This document shows, one piece after another, positions 21,504 through 28,459 of a DNA stretch of 64,000 nt (positions are counted from its first letter, which is position 1; every line of letters starts with the position of its first letter). A program made the position numbers and the translations under genes. The DNA comes from Synechococcus sp. PROS-U-1 (GTDB lineage Bacteria > Cyanobacteriota > Cyanobacteriia > PCC-6307 > Cyanobiaceae): the NCBI RefSeq assembly GCF_014279755.1, contig NZ_CP047951.1:1736001-1800000 (forward strand), in the 5' to 3' direction. The notes beneath the pieces are model-generated. The model had not been told where the DNA came from, did not search any database, and saw nothing but the letters and a program-made list of their open reading frames with translations.

Positions 21504-21675
21504 GGCCATGTTGACAAAAAGGGCTGTTGTCAACGGCAGCGTGGCAAACATCGACATCCAGCCGTGTGATGACCAGCTCCACGTCCATGCGATCCAGCAC
21601 CATCGCCTCCAGCAGTCGCTTGTTGTTCCGCGCCGCCCGCCTGAGCCGATGACTCGCAGGCGAATGCTTCGCCAT
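21478..21675 (-). CDS. Small protein upstream of the thioredoxin-fold gene
   Basis: 65 residues. The basic N-terminal helix (SHRLRRAARNNKRLLEAM) and a hydrophobic/acidic patch (DVELVITRLDVD) are protein-like, and the ATG is well placed. Its end overlaps the start of the thioredoxin-fold gene in another frame, suggesting coupled translation. Unknown family. Confidence 0.5.
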   Translation of the reverse strand: MAKHSPASHRLRRAARNNKRLLEAMVLDRMDVELVITRLDVDVCHAAVDNSPFCQHGHDSSSATA

Positions 21676-21744
21676 AACGCCATCGAGGTGTTGGACAAGA
21701 TGCTGAAAACAGGCTGGCGACGGTGCAGGCCGCCGGTGCGGTGA

Positions 21745-21888
21745 TCAGCGAATAACTACCTTCTGAATAGGGCAGTATTCATTCGCCATCTGGCGTAAGA
21801 CTGCAGCGACTCCATGAGTGTTGCGGAATGCTTGGTAGATAGCCAATTGATTGTTTAGGTCTTGGCAGCTCTTGCTTTTGAAATCCAT
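21745..21888 (-). CDS. 47-residue soluble protein, unknown
   Basis: The ATG at 21888 opens a complete frame beginning MDFKSKSCQDLNNQLAIYQA and ending CPIQKVVIR before a TGA. The central RNTHGVAAVLRQMANEY reads as a helix. The balanced composition, with Cys at both ends, argues for real coding. No family recognised. Confidence 0.55.
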   Translation of the reverse strand: MDFKSKSCQDLNNQLAIYQAFRNTHGVAAVLRQMANEYCPIQKVVIR

Positions 21889-22095
21889 GTGAACAGTTCA
21901 GAGAACTGACTTAACGCTGGCCTTGGTTAGCTATGGATTGAAGTGTGATCTGGCACCAATTAACGACGCCTGATCACGCCACCCAATCAATCGGGCCCCA
22001 TCCACCGTCGAGGAACTCACGGCAGTCCCACCTCATCGGTGATGGTGGTGGTCGCTTGGCGTCGTCCCGCCCAGCGGCACTTTCAGTTTCCGGAG

Positions 22096-22122
22096 GAGCG
22101 ATAGGGATACCGCTCTTTTTTT
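22096..22122 (+). terminator. Rho-independent terminator
   Basis: GAGCG, 10-base loop, CGCTC, then seven T. No protein gene precedes it on this strand within 1.3 kb, so it may end a small RNA. Confidence 0.6.
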
Positions 22123-22237
22123 GTGTCTTGCTGATACAGAAAGCGGTAATTCCGCTCATGACCCGCTGCCCTGATCCGCCTTAGAACTGGGATGAGGTCA
22201 GAGACCGATGAGCAGTAACCAGGTCTCAATGACCTTC

Positions 22238-22258
22238 AGGGGGGCGCGACGCCCCCCT
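22238..22258. repeat. Strong 9-bp GC hairpin
   Basis: AGGGGGGCG, loop CGA, CGCCCCCCT: a perfect inverted repeat without T-run on either side. Confidence 0.7.
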
Positions 22259-22333
22259 TCTCAATGCGCGCTTCTACGGATGGCGGCATAGGCGTGGATA
22301 GAGAGTATTAGGTCAACCCTCCGTAAGGGGGTC

Positions 22334-22374
22334 CAATGCGTCGAACAGAGCAGAGGGTGGGACCTCTGCTTTTT
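22334..22374 (+). repeat. GTGGGA-loop terminator-like repeat, copy A
   Basis: CAATGCGTCGAAC at 22334-22346, stem GCAGAGG (22350-22356), loop GTGGGA, stem CCTCTGC (22363-22369), then five T. The stem is perfect. Compare copies at 22470 and 11426. Confidence 0.7.
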
Positions 22375-22469
22375 CTTGGGTTGCTGACCCCATTAGTCGT
22401 TTGGTCGTAATGGCGACGACCAGTAGGTGAACCCCGCGTAATTCTTTGGGTGCTTCTTCGGTGAAGGGG

Positions 22470-22510
22470 CAATGCGTCGAACTGGGAGGGGGTGGGACCT
22501 CTCCTTTTTT
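22470..22510 (+). repeat. GTGGGA-loop terminator-like repeat, copy B
   Basis: CAATGCGTCGAAC at 22470-22482, stem GGAGGGG (22485-22491), loop GTGGGA, stem CCTCTCC (22498-22504, one G-T pair), then six T. Copies A and B are 136 bp apart and share the 13-base upstream box exactly. Confidence 0.7.
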
Positions 22511-22611
22511 CGCAGTATGTAAAGCGCACCCACGGCACCCCTGACCGCCTGAAGAGGGTGGTGCCGCTGGAGAGAGTCCAGCGTTTTCGACGCGTTCGAC
22601 CCCTTGTTGCT

Positions 22612-22637
22612 GGCGGCACTCCCTGCCGCCCTTTTTT
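22612..22637 (+). terminator. Rho-independent terminator
   Basis: GGCGGCA, loop CTCCC, TGCCGCC, then C and six T. It sits directly before the first of the two 60-bp direct repeats. Confidence 0.65.
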
Positions 22638-22697
22638 ATTGCTTGAGCAGAGCGGGGAACACTCAAGTCAGTCACGACTGATCCATGACCAGCGACA
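22638..22697 (+). repeat. 60-bp direct repeat, left copy, with gene remnant
   Basis: Matches 24135-24194 at 56 of 60 bases. The repeat spans the leader and the first codons of the gene at 24182. Here the corresponding frame (MTSDTRLFPWIH, ATG at 22685) stops after 12 codons, so this copy is a truncated remnant. The TerB/Coq4-like gene lies between the two copies. Confidence 0.75.
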
Positions 22698-22975
22698 CCC
22701 GCCTTTTCCCATGGATTCACTAGTTCTTTACTGCAATAGGGAGCCAATTAAATGCCTACTAAAATATATTTATATGTTTAAATCAGATATTTCTTTCAAT
22801 ACCAAGTTTCACTTGTTGATTATAGTAATTAATCCGGTTCCGAGAGGGTGCTATGAAAAATTTTCCATCATCGCACCCATTGCCAGGCTTATCGTATTTT
22901 GGAACATAGACTGTAATTCATGATACCGCTTTTTGGGCCGCCCCTTCTACATTGAGATTTCCTGTCACTGGCTAA
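22698..22975 (+). other. AT-rich leader of the Coq4-like gene
   Basis: Strikingly AT-rich compared with the flanks, without any gene; a short frame MKNFPSSHPLPGLSYFGT at about 22854 is probably not expressed. Homology to the right-hand repeat decays within ~20 bp of its left edge, marking the island boundary. Confidence 0.5.
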
Positions 22976-23953
22976 ATGAAAAATCTTCCTAAGTGGAACG
23001 CGCGTGAAGCGCAAATCTTTTTACAGGCTATGAATTCAGTCGGCAGCCTTGATGCCAATGGGAGTCCAGAAGCTATTATTCTTGAATTCATAAAATCAGT
23101 CCAAAGTCATGTTCTCCATAGCGATATTGATATTCAATACTTAGAGTCAATGACACCAGCCGCATGCGCAGCACTTATTAAGGACGAAGATAAAAGGTTT
23201 CAATTAATACAGATACTGATCTTGATGCCCTACGTAGATATGAGCCTAAATTCACAAATGATTGACATGGTTGATGAGTATGCAAATGCATTTGGGCTTA
23301 ATCCAAATACTTTAAGAGACTTGCACAAGGTCAAAGATAATCATCTAAAGCGTCTTTTATGGGACTATGGACGTCGCTCAATGGATGAATTTCTTGGTTT
23401 GAACTCAGCGCCAAAGCTTGTCAAGGGATTTGTCGATGCTATTCATCAATCAGTTGGCGACCCAATATTAGCAAGCAAGTATAAGGGTCTCGTAAATTAT
23501 CCCGAGGGGAGCCTTGGGCATTCAATTTTTTTTTGGTATCGAGATAGGGAATGGCCGTTACCTGGCGAACATAAAAGCATGTCAGAACTCTTGATAAAGC
23601 ATGACTGCTGTCACATTCTTGGAGGATTCAATACCGATACATATGGCGAAATAAATGTAGCCGCATTTCAAGCAGGACTCTTTAGCGACGGGTTTGGATT
23701 TGAATCTTTGCTAGAGGTAATTTTGGATTTTCATCTAGGGAAGAAGTTTTCGACTGTAGGCGATATTATTCCACCATCAACTGGTTCCTTTGTTCCCGAT
23801 GATGCAATGGCTGGCTATGAAAAAGGGTTATGTTGTAATGTCAATATCATCCAGGACCTTGACTTCTGGTCTGTTGCCAATGTGCAAGTATCTGCTATCA
23901 GAGAAAACCTCGGAATTCCGAGAATAGATGGCCCTATTTTGATTAAGCCTTGA
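22976..23953 (+). CDS. TerB-like plus Coq4-like zinc-motif protein
   Basis: 325 residues, AT-rich coding. Residues ~60-125 (KDEDKRFQLIQILILMPYVD ... ANAFGLNPNTLRDLH) have the helical pattern of TerB-like domains. Residues ~145-280 resemble Coq4: NYPEGSLGHSIFFWY, then H209-D-C-C-H213 followed 12 residues later by E225, exactly the Coq4 metal motif HDxxH-x11-E (HDCCHILGGFNTDTYGE), then AAFQAGL and LDFHLG. Coq4 works in ubiquinone synthesis, which cyanobacteria lack, so the substrate must differ; a plastoquinone-like or lipid ligand is possible. Base composition and flanking repeats indicate acquisition by transfer. Confidence 0.7.
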   Translation: MKNLPKWNAREAQIFLQAMNSVGSLDANGSPEAIILEFIKSVQSHVLHSDIDIQYLESMTPAACAALIKDEDKRFQLIQILILMPYVDMSLNSQMIDMVDEYANAFGLNPNTLRDLHKVKDNHLKRLLWDYGRRSMDEFLGLNSAPKLVKGFVDAIHQSVGDPILASKYKGLVNYPEGSLGHSIFFWYRDREWPLPGEHKSMSELLIKHDCCHILGGFNTDTYGEINVAAFQAGLFSDGFGFESLLEVILDFHLGKKFSTVGDIIPPSTGSFVPDDAMAGYEKGLCCNVNIIQDLDFWSVANVQVSAIRENLGIPRIDGPILIKP

Positions 23954-24134
23954 TTACCGTATCACCATCTCGTGATTATTAAATATCGAACCCAAAATCT
24001 CATGAAAATGTGACCATCCGCCAAAACCCATTGAAATCAAGGTTGTTGCTTTATTCACATCCATAGTCCCGAGAATTTCAATTTTATACCTTGCAGTACT
24101 TTTCCTTTAGCTCGCTTGCAAGGCATGGTGCGTC

Positions 24135-24194
24135 ATTGCTTGTGCAGAGCGGGGAACACTCAAGGCAGTCACGACTGACCCATGACCCGCGACA
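24135..24194 (+). repeat. 60-bp direct repeat, right copy
   Basis: Right partner of 22638-22697. Includes the leader CAGAGCGGGGAACACTCAAG and the first codons of the intact small gene starting at 24182. Confidence 0.75.
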
Positions 24195-24430
24195 ACCGCA
24201 TTGCCCTTTTCCTCATGGAGGAGCTGGTTGCTGCCCTACGCGTCAATGACCCTGATGCCTTCCGAGGCTTGCTGTCCGAGGGCATTCAGAAGCTTGGAGT
24301 GACAGAGGTGGAGGAGATGCTGCTGGTCTGGCTCTATTCGTTCCTGACTGCGGAAGAGCAGAACAGGCTGCTGGGTTGGCAAGGGCGTGGTCTTCAGATG
24401 ACGCGGAGACGCGGGTCGAATGAGCTTTAG
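24182..24430 (+). CDS. 82-residue helical protein, unknown
   Basis: Acidic helices (LMEELVAALRVNDPDAFRGL, LGVTEVEEMLLVWLYSFLT) with a basic C-terminal tail (GRGLQMTRRRGSNEL). GC content returns to that of the chromosome here. Its 5' end is the intact version of the remnant at 22685. No family recognised. Confidence 0.6.
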   Translation: MTRDNRIALFLMEELVAALRVNDPDAFRGLLSEGIQKLGVTEVEEMLLVWLYSFLTAEEQNRLLGWQGRGLQMTRRRGSNEL

Positions 24431-24490
24431 TGATGTTGTGGCAATGCTCATCACCAGTGCAGTAGAGGCAGAAACCGATATCTGATCCGT

Positions 24491-24736
24491 TTACTGCCAG
24501 TCGCCCTTCACAATTTTGAACTGAATGGGAATCTTCGAGTACACCTCAATCGGGGAATCCAGCAGATGCTTTTCTAGAAATTCGTTGAGTGCGCCGTCTA
24601 TCAAATCAAAGGCCCTTTTCAATCTCACCTGCTCCACGTCATCCGCCTTGGACACGCTGGCGTCCTCCAGAACCCGCACGACTGACTCCCAGTTCTCCCT
24701 CGAAAGCTCAAGCGTCAATTTGATATCTGCGGTCAT
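24491..24736 (-). CDS. 81-residue acidic protein, unknown
   Basis: ATG at 24736 (MTADIKLTLELSRENWESVV); the frame is open further up, but that part is Cys- and Leu-rich and unlike protein. The structure looks like strand-helix-helix (VEQVRLKRAFDLIDGALNEF, ending KIPIQFKIVKGDWQ). Divergent from the next gene with 114 bp between starts. Unknown. Confidence 0.55.
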   Translation of the reverse strand: MTADIKLTLELSRENWESVVRVLEDASVSKADDVEQVRLKRAFDLIDGALNEFLEKHLLDSPIEVYSKIPIQFKIVKGDWQ

Positions 24737-24850
24737 GTGAGTTGGAGGAACCATTGGCGAAGAACTGCAGCAGCAGTGCTCTTGAATGCATAAGCAGTGC
24801 TCCCCAAGAGAATAGCCTGATAGGCTCTGAGAATCCAATAGGAAAATAGC

Positions 24851-25093
24851 ATGGAAGAGCAAAAGAAGTTGACTTCTGAGCGATTAATGCAAGCCAAGGC
24901 ATTTCTTGATAATGGCGTTATTACGGAAGAGCAGTTTATTGAAATGACTCACGGACAGGTGGAGCCGGAATCGACAGGCGACTCTCAAGTCTTGGGCATG
25001 ATTTTTGATAGAATCAATAAAATTGAGCAAAGATTGATAGGAATCGAGTCATCGATAAGCCTTCTGACTCAAAAAATTCATCCTCACGAGTAG
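24851..25093 (+). CDS. SHOCT-like small protein
   Basis: 80 residues. The first half, KKLTSERLMQAKAFLDNGVI followed by TEEQFIEMT, resembles the SHOCT motif (a short helix pair with a conserved turn in the phrase L..G.IT.eEF). The second half is a coiled coil (IFDRINKIEQRLIGIESSIS). Cytoplasmic; possibly an oligomerisation module. AT-richer than the core genome. Confidence 0.5.
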   Translation: MEEQKKLTSERLMQAKAFLDNGVITEEQFIEMTHGQVEPESTGDSQVLGMIFDRINKIEQRLIGIESSISLLTQKIHPHE

Positions 25094-25237
25094 ACAAAAA
25101 ATTGGGCCAGCCTGTCTTCGTTTAACGCTTAGTTCTTTGGCAAACACCTCGAAATGCCTTTCGCGAAAATCGATGCAACATTGACTTCGATTTTACTTAC
25201 CAATCAATGGCGAAACTCTTGCAAATATTAACCAAGG

Positions 25238-25576
25238 CTAGGTGTTCAGCTTCTTTATTGATTCATTCGCCGTTTGGGTTATTGACTCCTTATTCTTATC
25301 GAATAATTCTTGGACGGACTTTGCAGCTGTAGCGGAGCTTGCGAACGGCAGGAAGAGGTCAAACTCTGGACAATAAGCGAAGCAAGTATCAACAACGCGA
25401 TATCCATTCTCTTTGGATATCGTTTCTGCCAGTATGTGTATTAAGTGGATCTTTGACAAAGTTGATGAAATGTTTACCGCAACTGTTACTTTCCCTCCTT
25501 TCCAGCTGCCATCCAGGAGTCCTGCGGCAAACCAGTTCGATGCAGGTACATAAGAGTCAACTTGTTTGGGATCCAT
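25238..25576 (-). CDS. 112-residue hypothetical protein
   Basis: No signal peptide or clear membrane span. Contains SWKGGKVTVAVNISSTLSKI and an amphipathic C-terminal helix (ELFDKNKESITQTANESIKK). Low GC, within the island. No family recognised. Confidence 0.5.
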   Translation of the reverse strand: MDPKQVDSYVPASNWFAAGLLDGSWKGGKVTVAVNISSTLSKIHLIHILAETISKENGYRVVDTCFAYCPEFDLFLPFASSATAAKSVQELFDKNKESITQTANESIKKLNT

Positions 25577-25960
25577 GGTATTAGAAAATCTAAGTAGATC
25601 CGTATGTTCCCTGTATTGTATTTAAAATTTTCTTGCTCGCAACTCGCTCGACACAACTAATAGCTTGGTCTTGCTGCCCACTGCAACCCGCCTTCTATCG
25701 GATCCCCAATCGCTATTGTTTTTGATTCGAACAAATAGTGGTTTTTCTTGCATAGAGGGTTGTCTTTGTTACAGCGTTGTTGTCGCTATCCATCTCCCGA
25801 AAGAACATTAACCCCGTCAGCAATGGCGGTTTTTTTGCTGAGAAGTTGTTTATTAGCGCCACCTAGAATTGTGAGGTTTATCCGGGACATTGAAGCCCGC
25901 AAAAAGGGTATCCAAAACCTAGGCCCTTTCGACAACCTCGATGAGTCAGAGAATAATCTT
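25577..25960. other. Intergenic region with a T-run hairpin
   Basis: No gene supported. At 25811-25837 lies CCCCGTCAGCAATGGCGG followed by seven T; a near copy occurs at 27971-27997. Confidence 0.45.
25811..25837 (+). terminator. Terminator-like repeat (CAGCAAT loop), copy 1
   Basis: A short CCG/CGG stem around TCAGCAATGG and a run of seven T. The loop sequence is shared with the hairpin at 27972. The stem is weak, so function is uncertain. Confidence 0.4.
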
Positions 25961-26209
25961 CTAAGGCTCAACCTCAGCACCCCAAGCCGGGGCAGTGGGA
26001 GCCCAACCCAGCCGCAGAAGCTCTTTCCAGCGTTGCTCGGCAGCATCGCGGCGCAGGTATTCCCGCCGCTTGAGCAGGGCGGGCTCACCGTTGGGCATCT
26101 CCCGGCCGTGATCGACGAACACCCGTAGATCGCGGATCCAAGCCTTCTTGTCACGGTGAAACCGGCAGATCCAATAGCCCTCCCGGTCGACGAGCCAGCC
26201 CTCCCGCAC
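25961..26209 (-). CDS. DUF1651 family protein
   Basis: 82 residues from a GTG at 26209. The sequence follows the DUF1651 pattern of marine picocyanobacteria: EGWLVDREGYWICRFHRDKK, VFVDHGREMPNGEPALLKRR and RDAAEQRWKELLRLGW. Function unknown; members are often multicopy and located in islands. Confidence 0.75.
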   Translation of the reverse strand: MREGWLVDREGYWICRFHRDKKAWIRDLRVFVDHGREMPNGEPALLKRREYLRRDAAEQRWKELLRLGWAPTAPAWGAEVEP

Positions 26210-26822
26210 TGCAACCTTTGCTAGTACTTATGTACTGGACGCATTGCGGTGAAGTGGTCAGCAGTGGAGCCAGCTGCGAGGGCAGCCAGGCACGCCACCC
26301 CAAAGATCGATCGCTCAGGCCATTGAGGCAATGCGCCTTAATGCCGATGACTTTGTGCCTTCAAGGCACAAAACTGAGTGCATCGAGATCGGAGGCGTTC
26401 ATGAGAGACGACGGTCCAACCGAGCAGATCCAAGAAGCAGAATGACTTTCTGGCCCCTGCTCCAACAGTCTCAAAAATGACCTGGGTTGGTCGTTTGGCT
26501 AGGTACACATCAGATACGTCACGCCAATCGACGCTCCACTTGCACCGTCTCAGGTGCCCTCGGAGAAAACGACCCAACACCTAGAGCAAATGGCCCCAGG
26601 GCGCCTCTAGCCAGAAGCTTCGACCCTCTCTCTTTTCGGCAGTGATGGGTTGAACCATGCGCAAACGAGCGAGCTAGGCCGTCTCTCCACCGGGAGGGGC
26701 GGCCTTCCTTTTGTGAATCGTGAATCATTCAACATCATTCCTAGAGTGAATAATTTTTATATTGATAATTTGATTAAATAGCCTAGAGCATTAATCTTCA
26801 AGCCTATTAGCACATCCTACTC
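26210..26822. other. Intergenic stretch, no gene supported
   Basis: About 600 bp. The clearest element is the stem-loop at 26677-26704. Frames on both strands read as noise (Arg/Ser/Pro-rich). Confidence 0.45.
26677..26714 (+). terminator. Rho-independent terminator-like stem-loop
   Basis: GGCCGTCTCTCC, short loop, GGAGGGGCGGCC, then TTCCTTTTG. Twelve pairs including two G-T. It may end a non-coding transcript from the stretch to its left. Confidence 0.5.
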
Positions 26823-27554
26823 GTGCCTTCCTCTCTGCTGCCTGAAAATGAAGCGGAAAGGATTAATGCGCTCAATGAATACAGGATTTTAGGCACAAGC
26901 CCTGAGCAGTCATATGACGATATAACGAAAATAGCTGCAACTGTATGCTCTGCACCCATTGCTCTTATGAGCCTGGTTGATGTAGATAGGCAGTGGTTCA
27001 AGTCAAAAGTAGGAGTTGATATTCAGGAGACACCAAGGGATTGGTCTTTTTGCGCTCACGCAATTCATTCCTCCGATCCCCTTGTCGTTCCCGATGCAAC
27101 GATGGACTCACGCTTTATTGACAATCCTCTTGTTTGCGGCGACCCTCAGATAAGACTTTATGCAGGTTTTCCGCTGGAAAACAGTGCTTCATTAAGAGTA
27201 GGAACTTTATGCGTGATAGATCGAAGACCTCGTTATTTAACTGATAGAGAATGCGATGTCATGAAAGCTCTTGCAAGGCAAGTCGTTGCTTTTCTCGAGT
27301 TGCGAAAAAAATCTATCAACCTAATTGAATCCTTTTGCACACATAGCGGTGGAAATAGAATGATTTCTACGTGCTCTTATTGCAGGAAGGCTCAAGACCA
27401 GAATGGAGAATGGATGCATCTTGATAAATATCTTTCACAAAGATCAAGCCTGAAATTCACACATGGCATCTGCGATTCCTGTATCGAGCAGCATTTCCCA
27501 GAGGTCTTGGACGTTTGGCGATCAGAGGACGAGCTAAAAGCCTCCGAACCTTAG
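26823..27554 (+). CDS. GAF-domain protein with C-terminal cysteine cluster
   Basis: 243 residues, GTG start. GAF domain at ~15-165: ITKIAATVCSAPIALMSLVD, WFKSKVGVDIQETPRDWSFC, RLYAGFPLENSASLRVGTLC. The C-terminal ~50 residues carry CSYCRKAQDQNGEWMHLDKY and HGICDSCIEQHFPEV, the two CxxC pairs seen at the ends of many two-component and GAF signalling proteins, probably a metal or structural site. No kinase or cyclase follows, so it would act as a sensor for a separate partner. AT-rich. Its 3' end overlaps a small convergent gene by 21 bp. Confidence 0.75.
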   Translation: MPSSLLPENEAERINALNEYRILGTSPEQSYDDITKIAATVCSAPIALMSLVDVDRQWFKSKVGVDIQETPRDWSFCAHAIHSSDPLVVPDATMDSRFIDNPLVCGDPQIRLYAGFPLENSASLRVGTLCVIDRRPRYLTDRECDVMKALARQVVAFLELRKKSINLIESFCTHSGGNRMISTCSYCRKAQDQNGEWMHLDKYLSQRSSLKFTHGICDSCIEQHFPEVLDVWRSEDELKASEP

Positions 27555-27695
27555 CGCTGCCTCAAGTGCCCCTAGGCCGAGAAGGAAGGTGCCACCCAGC
27601 AAAATCAACTCCTTGGGATTTTGAGCCATTGACGTAAGGGCAGAGCCCACGAGTAGCGCTCCAAAAAACCTAAAGGGAATCTGCAGATCCAACAT
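27534..27695 (-). CDS. 53-residue membrane protein, paralogue of 10970-11152
   Basis: ATG at 27695; starts MLDLQIPFRFFGALLVGSAL, then SMAQNPKEL, then a second hydrophobic helix with LLGLGALEAAL and a GGF end. It shares this C-terminal motif and the two-helix hairpin layout with the gene at 10970. Too short for routine gene finders, but the conservation between the two supports it. Confidence 0.6.
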   Translation of the reverse strand: MLDLQIPFRFFGALLVGSALTSMAQNPKELILLGGTFLLGLGALEAALRFGGF

Positions 27696-27717
27696 TTAGA
27701 TGAATTACGTCTTTTGA

Positions 27718-27942
27718 TTGTCGCACTCCGTATTTACACAAATTCATGAAATAGGCTTAATAACTCAGCGCCTTGGCCATTCTCTTTACAAAAGTCAATA
27801 CTTTGAGGCTGCAGGAGTCCCTGATGGACTCGATCCAAACGGCGTGAAGATTGCTCTTGGCGGAGGCTGGGGAGATACAGACCAAGCTCGTTATGACGAT
27901 TGGGTTGATCTCTTCTCCACTGACTCCACAGTTTTGGCTTAG
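27718..27942 (+). CDS. 74-residue hypothetical protein
   Basis: TTG start at 27718, no ATG in frame near it. Product has a helical first half (HEIGLITQRLGHSLYKSQYF) and GGGWGDTDQARYDDWVDLFS in the second. Codon use is reasonable, but start choice is weak. Confidence 0.4.
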   Translation: MSHSVFTQIHEIGLITQRLGHSLYKSQYFEAAGVPDGLDPNGVKIALGGGWGDTDQARYDDWVDLFSTDSTVLA

Positions 27943-27971
27943 ACAAACATCAATTCGAAGAGCAATTCTCA

Positions 27972-27997
27972 CCCCATCAGCAATAGCGGGGTTTTTT
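27972..27997 (+). terminator. Rho-independent terminator (CAGCAAT loop), copy 2
   Basis: CCCC, loop ATCAGCAATAGC, GGGG, then six T. About 30 bp after the 74-residue gene, so it plausibly ends that transcript. Confidence 0.6.
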
Positions 27998-28099
27998 ATT
28001 GCTCATCCAGCATGGCGGCGGCACCGTGGTGGCCTGAATTAAAGGGGGGTCGACATAGCACACACATAAGCTTTGATTGGCTCAGCTTTCCCGTGAGCT

Positions 28100-28222
28100 A
28101 TGGCTTTGACCAAAGCGTTCCGCAACTGGCTGGATTCTTGGAAGCATCAGCCTCTATCCAAGCCAATCGAATCCAGCTCCAGCAGTGAGGAGCAAGATGG
28201 CGAGATGACCATCTTGGGTTGA
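28100..28222 (+). CDS. 40-residue protein, possible gene
   Basis: Reads MALTKAFRNWLDSWKHQPLS then a Ser/Glu-rich tail ending GEMTILG. An amphipathic basic helix followed by an acidic tail. The ATG follows CCGTGAGC, a weak ribosome-binding context. No family recognised. Confidence 0.4.
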   Translation: MALTKAFRNWLDSWKHQPLSKPIESSSSSEEQDGEMTILG

Positions 28223-28459
28223 CTCACATCGTTCCCCGCTGCTGAAAACTCTCAGCGGAGCCTCAGAACAAATCTGACGAAGGCGCTTTAACTGGCGTAG
28301 CAACGAGGGCACGTACAACCGAACCCAGGCGGTCCCCTTCCTTCGGCCAGCACGACAGCACGGTGGAGCCTTGGGACCGGACATCCTCCCCAGCAATCCC
28401 GGCCCAGTCCTGGTTTGTATGCATCACCCTTGCCCATGACCTGAGAGACTCAAAGCAAC
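28223..28459. other. Intergenic stretch
   Basis: No gene supported. Contains a CCGCTGCTGAAAACTCTCAGCGG inverted repeat near 28235-28257, without a T-run. Confidence 0.4.

Follow-up and report, generated by a model that had tools for sequence, protein, structure and literature searches.

The window, which is the whole 64,000-nucleotide stretch of DNA analyzed here, comes from a marine Synechococcus. On its forward strand, positions 22976-23953 hold an open reading frame (ORF) that starts with ATG and encodes 325 amino acids. A relative from another genome of the genus (L002), which is 63% identical, has equal length and the same ends, and thus the frame is considered a gene. Its product joins a TerB-like N-terminal half (approximately residues 5-123, positions 22988-23344) to a Coq4-like C-terminal half (approximately residues 125-317, positions 23348-23926). 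The latter contains a metal motif, H209-D210-xx-H213-x11-E225, at positions 23600-23650. All of these features are on the forward strand.

The gene was originally described as AT-rich and located between direct repeats, and both descriptions are accurate. Its GC content is 0.41 against 0.58 for the window, and two copies of a 68-nt direct repeat, 91% identical, flank it at 22638-22705 and 24135-24202, both on the forward strand. The right copy consists of the 47 bases upstream of an 82-amino-acid ORF (24182-24430) plus the first 21 bases of that ORF. No Pfam match was found for this small ORF, which belongs to a dispersed small-gene family: when the ORF is taken along with the stretch upstream of it, the genome matches at 13 places, a count that includes the ORF itself and many fragments.

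The gene and its repeats are part of a variable stretch of 6.9 kb (approximately 21504-28439), bounded by an AhpC/TSA-type gene at one end and by the side of a PepN-type gene at the other. The GC content of this stretch is 0.485 against 0.585 for the window. The gene at the right-hand flank was found in 25 other genomes, and the site was compared in five of them. In three of the five, the corresponding site is only about 50-110 bp long, while in the other two this place is occupied by 4.4 and 8.7 kb, most of which is other DNA. The 8.7-kb version (L153) has two pieces in common with the stretch in the window, of 130 and 116 bases, the 116-base one being part of the 82-amino-acid ORF family. 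The fusion gene in this variable stretch is accessory, and it was probably acquired horizontally. The genome that contains the window has a second member of the family (L017) and no Coq4 match above the Pfam cut-off.

Evidence for the two domains

When the protein is scanned alone, neither Pfam nor NCBIfam gives anything above any cut-off, and the NCBIfam scan is empty. The Pfam TerB model (PF05099) reaches 12.4 bits (E 0.2), which is below its gathering cut-off of 24.4; the Coq4 model (PF05019) is not listed even at E 10, and hence does not reach its gathering cut-off. A search of the single protein against PDB sequences finds 3msq at E 0.017. Since the single-protein scans are under the cut-offs, the domain make-up is resolved by profiles only.

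A profile from a nine-row alignment (A1) was searched against 291 cyanobacterial genomes, of which 75 matched at E ≤ 0.001. There were 15 strong matches (E < 1e-80) in nine genomes, some of them being rows of A1 itself. The weak matches belong mostly to two classes, which cover either profile positions ~7-124 or ~171-325. All four scanned proteins of the first class contain Pfam TerB, with 39.9-41.8 bits (cut-off 24.4), and each also contains Mo-nitro_C. In the second class, four of the six scanned proteins contain Pfam Coq4 above its cut-off of 22.9, and two are below it (L030 with 19 and L033 with 22). Independently of these two classes, a profile from a 78-row alignment (A4; the window and 77 relatives, with L062, L098, and L129 excluded as broken or partial) was searched against PDB. 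It matches 3msq (E = 1e-9) and 6e12 (E = 2e-6) at profile positions 171-314, whereas positions 5-117 match 2ou3 (E = 1.3e-5), which is annotated as a tellurite-resistance protein of COG3793.

The profile-profile comparison that the original prediction had proposed points in the same direction, as both halves match by profile, the Coq4-like one included. With hhalign, the family gives 98.8% with a Coq4 alignment (A5) and 98.85% over 118 aligned columns with a TerB–Mo-nitro_C alignment (A6), figures that partly repeat the A1 search, because A1 had already found every one of the four rows in A6 and seven of the 14 in A5. The control comparison of A5 with A6 gives 0.4%, and it is only against this control that the hhalign E-values, which come from single comparisons, are meaningful. 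At E ≤ 0.01, Pfam recognizes Coq4 in 46 of the 78 family members (best 2.8e-5) and TerB in 33 (best 3.3e-12), leaving 32 members without a Coq4 match and 45 without a TerB match. Three NCBIfam models match one or two of the 78 members each, and none of them is named Coq4 or TerB. No Pfam or NCBIfam model specific to the TerB–Coq4 family turned up.

The predicted structure is nearly all helical (pLDDT 91.0, pTM 0.90). In Foldseek, the top match is 6e12 (E 6.6e-4, probability 1.00), but the superposition is loose, with TM 0.34/0.50 and an rmsd of 11.9. The best VIA match is also 6e12 (Z 11.0, rmsd 6.0, 169 aligned, model residues 104-317), with a Z score under the level of approximately 13 below which a match can reflect a common arrangement among helical bundles. 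It is followed by 3msq (Z 9.9, rmsd 5.2 over 158, within residues 104-317). For the N-terminal half, 2h5n, which we take to be a TerB-like structure, matches with Z 9.3, again in the range common among helical bundles, and an rmsd of 3.3 (110 aligned, residues 4 to 242 from first to last). In the fold rows shown, 2ou3 is absent, and unrelated rows with Z 4.7 and below were set aside. The model is thus predicted to have a Coq4 fold, with 6e12 and 3msq as its top matches. The TerB-like helical N-terminus that had been proposed is supported by profiles and less firmly by fold. Altogether, the proposed TerB-like plus Coq4-like architecture is borne out by the A4 search against PDB, by hhalign with its control, and by the best fold match.

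In comparison with the Coq4 family (PF05019; Alr8543/6e12 and 3msq), the fusion has the HDxxH-x11-E motif, the preceding LG position, and the C-terminal helical order, and its best fold match is in this family. It differs in the added TerB-like domain, in scoring below the Pfam cut-off, and in forming a separate branch for the C-terminal domain (99 SH-aLRT). With TerB (PF05099), the cyanobacterial TerB–Mo-nitro_C proteins, and 2ou3, it has in common an N-terminal helical domain, seen in the 118 aligned columns and in the sequence match to 2ou3. It differs from them in its low TerB score, its partly kept acidic positions, and its partner domain, which is Coq4 instead of Mo-nitro_C. The TerB–Mo-nitro_C proteins that the profile picks up with its N-terminal half are L032, L035, L038, and L039. 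There are also short cyanobacterial Coq4-like proteins of 172-175 amino acids (L033, L034, L037, and L047), which have the motif and a Coq4-like C-terminal half but no match to the TerB half, and which fall with canonical Coq4 in the C-domain tree. One of these, L033, is just under the Pfam Coq4 cut-off.

The metal motif and the chemistry it may support

The residues HDCCH-x11-E at 209-225 had been read as the Coq4 signature HDxxH-x11-E, and this reading is correct. In the window, the motif of the fusion is the sole instance among 561 stop-to-stop segments of at least 60 amino acids, and it appears in 106 of 100,000 shuffles of the protein. None of H209, D210, H213, and E225 varies in any of the 22 rows of an alignment (A2, window included) that reaches down to 17% identity to the window, and whose rows were fetched by whole-protein or profile search, without the motif; two broken matches, L018 and L029, were left unaligned. 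They are also invariant in the 78 rows of A4 (window included), where only E225 is an independent test because the first three residues are in the pattern used for fetching. The four residues align with H120, D121, H124, and E136 of the Nostoc Coq4 homologue Alr8543 (6e12), which are reported as Mg2+ ligands (PMC9774615). From this alignment, H209, H213, and E225 would converge in space, and in the model the metal residues are predicted on two neighboring helices (204-216 and 222-233). With these ligands in common, a metal site is very likely and a hydrophobic acid is the likeliest ligand, and the site is very probably occupied by metal.

The other phrases that had been called Coq4-like fared unevenly. 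PEGSLG has a Coq4 counterpart, LPEGTLG, in 3msq. AAFQAGL is Coq4-like only in part, its F231 lining up with Coq4 F142 when counted from the glutamate. For LDFHLG, no Coq4 counterpart was seen; it is instead conserved within the fusion family, with F252 in 71 and G255 in 77 of the 78 rows. Conversely, Coq4 Q146, which is invariant in A5, has no conserved counterpart in the fusions, as position 235 (also counted from the glutamate) varies; consequently, the chemistry of the fusion may differ from that of Coq4. Acidic metal-binding residues are typical of the TerB family, and the positions aligned to them are only partly kept in the fusions (D26 in 27, D88 in 57, and glutamate at 95 in 35 of the 78 rows).

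A catalytic role has been assigned to COQ4 only recently (PMC12938788, PMC7615680). In vitro, it is reported to decarboxylate a CoQ intermediate in a Zn-dependent manner, and mutants of a metal site with the same motif were tested (PMC7615680); in human cells, it is described as needed for oxidative decarboxylation (PMC12938788). By analogy, H209, D210, H213, and E225 in the C-terminal half of the fusion would bind one or two divalent metal ions next to a hydrophobic ligand pocket. The site would then carry out metal-dependent chemistry, probably a decarboxylation as reported for COQ4, with an amphipathic aromatic or prenyl/lipid acid as its substrate. The TerB-like half may be an accessory helical module with a part in docking, contact with the membrane, or regulation, and the function would be an accessory one, linked to a gene in a variable stretch, instead of a core plastoquinone step. 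The protein seems somewhat more probably an enzyme than a pure scaffold. Decarboxylase-type chemistry is the first choice among several, albeit a tentative one, and a lipid-binding scaffold is close behind it. A context of detoxification or lipid modification is a still more tentative suggestion.

As a scaffold or lipid-binding sensor without catalysis, the protein would bind metal and a prenyl or fatty chain in its Coq4 half, while the TerB half would signal or dock to the membrane. Alr8543 was crystallized with oleic acid and Mg2+ (PMC9774615, PDB 6e12), and COQ4 was at first regarded as a chaperone with a structural role in the CoQ complex (PMC12938788); both observations favor this possibility. 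So does the joining of TerB-type domains to other domains, as seen here with Mo-nitro_C. Nevertheless, the four metal ligands are kept in all aligned rows, a degree of conservation that seems to exceed what a scaffold alone calls for, and no conserved partner gene was found among the loci compared. Such a role is conceivable, if less probable than catalysis.

The fold had also been suggested to be reused, perhaps for plastoquinone, and its presence in a cyanobacterium was implied to be a surprise, given that cyanobacteria are not known to make ubiquinone. However, Coq4 homologues in cyanobacteria are already known, as the two crystal structures, 3msq and 6e12, are cyanobacterial, and a Coq4 match above the cut-off is found in 43 of 194 sampled cyanobacterial genomes. 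In a core plastoquinone role, the fusion would replace a decarboxylase or hydroxylase step. Cyanobacterial plastoquinone starts from a precursor related to prenylated 4-hydroxybenzoate, which speaks for such a role. It is on C1 of prenylated 4-hydroxybenzoate that COQ4 is reported to act in CoQ synthesis (PMC12938788, PMC7615680). By contrast, among the 34 genomes of the genus, only three have a match at E ≤ 1e-25 (identities of 100, 63, and 35%), and 13 have any match at E ≤ 0.001. UbiD, which serves plastoquinone synthesis, is present in 31 of these genomes and in all 19 near-complete ones. The accessory status of the fusion gene, together with so widespread a UbiD, argues against the core role. 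Additionally, the relatives of the fusion inhabit lineages that use other quinones. Use in core plastoquinone synthesis is thus very improbable. The overall reading, of an all-helical, two-domain accessory metalloprotein with Coq4-type metal chemistry and a TerB-like module and outside core plastoquinone synthesis, is given roughly even credence.

Family distribution, neighboring genes, and possible roles

A pattern scan of 84,980 species genomes matched 303 stretches, 135 of which encode relatives, and the best 80 were kept. By record titles, which may mislead on taxonomy because many relatives are metagenome-assembled genomes (MAGs), these best 80 of 135 cover five phyla. They include marine Synechococcus (WH7803 among them), freshwater Cyanobium types, and other cyanobacteria; Myxococcota with at best 48-49% identity, and also Nannocystis and Sorangium; Nitrospira and Reyranella with approximately 30% identity; and one Haliea MAG and one Binatia MAG. 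The TerB–Coq4 fusion therefore extends beyond cyanobacteria. Phage and plasmid records gave no relative at E ≤ 0.01, and viral contigs gave none when searched with the single protein, a query sensitive enough for close relatives alone.

In a quick tree of the 78 rows, built with a method that warns of long branches, the window groups with six Synechococcus rows (SH-aLRT 100). This group shares a set of 12 rows (99) with four rows from Myxococcota and an unplaced MAG, an arrangement that points to transfer between phyla without proving it. A C-domain tree of 67 rows, also made with a quick method, separates 47 TerB–Coq4 rows from 14 Coq4 rows by a branch with 99 SH-aLRT; it holds 37 of the 77 A4 relatives, hand-picked to thin near-copies, and its Coq4 rows are all cyanobacterial. 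Of six short proteins, five are on the Coq4 side, and the long-branched L030 is among the fusions.

No neighbor conserved across phyla was found with Pfam on a hand-picked part of the neighbors. A shared-neighbor cluster seen in 71 of the 80 loci was dropped, as it is mainly the antisense shadow of the fusion gene itself. In the WH7803-type lineage (L051-L054, L061, and L062), hemC-type and inorganic pyrophosphatase-type clusters, named after the members in L051, are near the gene in six of six loci, a synteny inside one genus that is not independent evidence. In Nitrospirota, a HlyD-type gene on the same strand is found at most 2.2 kb downstream in 13 of the 17 loci with room for it (the 18th, L065, has none), and in 10 loci it follows directly, no more than 300 bp away. 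In L070, AcrB-type and OEP genes come after the HlyD-type gene, making up an RND system. Of the eight loci with room in the Reyranella-type clade, seven have a MatE-type gene no more than 500 bp after the fusion gene (L102 is the one without). The Pfam names of these efflux genes come from one member of each cluster. The scanned neighbors in Myxococcota have no common partner, and no efflux gene was found among the scanned Synechococcus and Myxococcota neighbors; a chromate transporter is near L063.

The proximity to efflux genes in these two lineages hints at, but does not prove, a resistance or detoxification factor tied to efflux, which might, for instance, decarboxylate toxic aromatic acids or act in metal stress. 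The HlyD-type, AcrB-type and OEP, and MatE-type neighbors fit such a role, as does an accessory gene in a variable stretch. Nonetheless, efflux neighbors are limited to those two lineages, with none for the window or the scanned Myxococcota loci, and the name TerB does not show tellurite resistance, so that this possibility is considered unlikely.

Broken copies with a split frame or internal stops are found at L062 (8001-8972), G190:C1:1551050, G238:C1:2039018, and G022:C32:13833, and they fit gain and loss. It could be argued from these copies, from the AT-rich composition of the gene, and from its location in a variable stretch with repeat debris that it is an acquired gene that is degraded or inactive and is being lost. 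The full-length frame, the preserved invariant residues, and the 63% relative with the same ends make this highly improbable.

The accessory metalloprotein with Coq4-type chemistry can be placed in a broader, speculative scenario that we consider improbable at present. TerB–Coq4 proteins would form a metalloenzyme family of their own, independent of quinones, and pass as an accessory trait among cyanobacteria, myxobacteria, and nitrite oxidisers. They would decarboxylate, or otherwise disarm, aromatic or lipid acids of amphipathic character, working alongside efflux pumps in some hosts; the Coq4 of CoQ synthesis would then be one specialized branch of an older metal-dependent fold. A bacterial sister family that has the same metal ligands, is fused to another domain, and lives in hosts that do not need it for quinone would show a role of the fold outside CoQ synthesis. 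The family offers bacterial proteins, and a named strain, WH7803, in which the function of the fold may be tested. No description of the TerB–Coq4 fusion was found in the open-licence literature searched, as far as its text was accessible, and one may be in print elsewhere. In Synechococcus MITS9509, a prochlorosin cluster is reported to include a Coq4 gene (PMC10783134).

Finally, some hosts have a second TerB–Coq4-like gene beside or near the first. Such copies are found in Nannocystis, Sorangium, a cyanobacterial MAG, and Enhygromyxa, with loci at L074 (6656-7660), L091 (5116-6108), L095 (6694-7716), and L127 (10657-11760).
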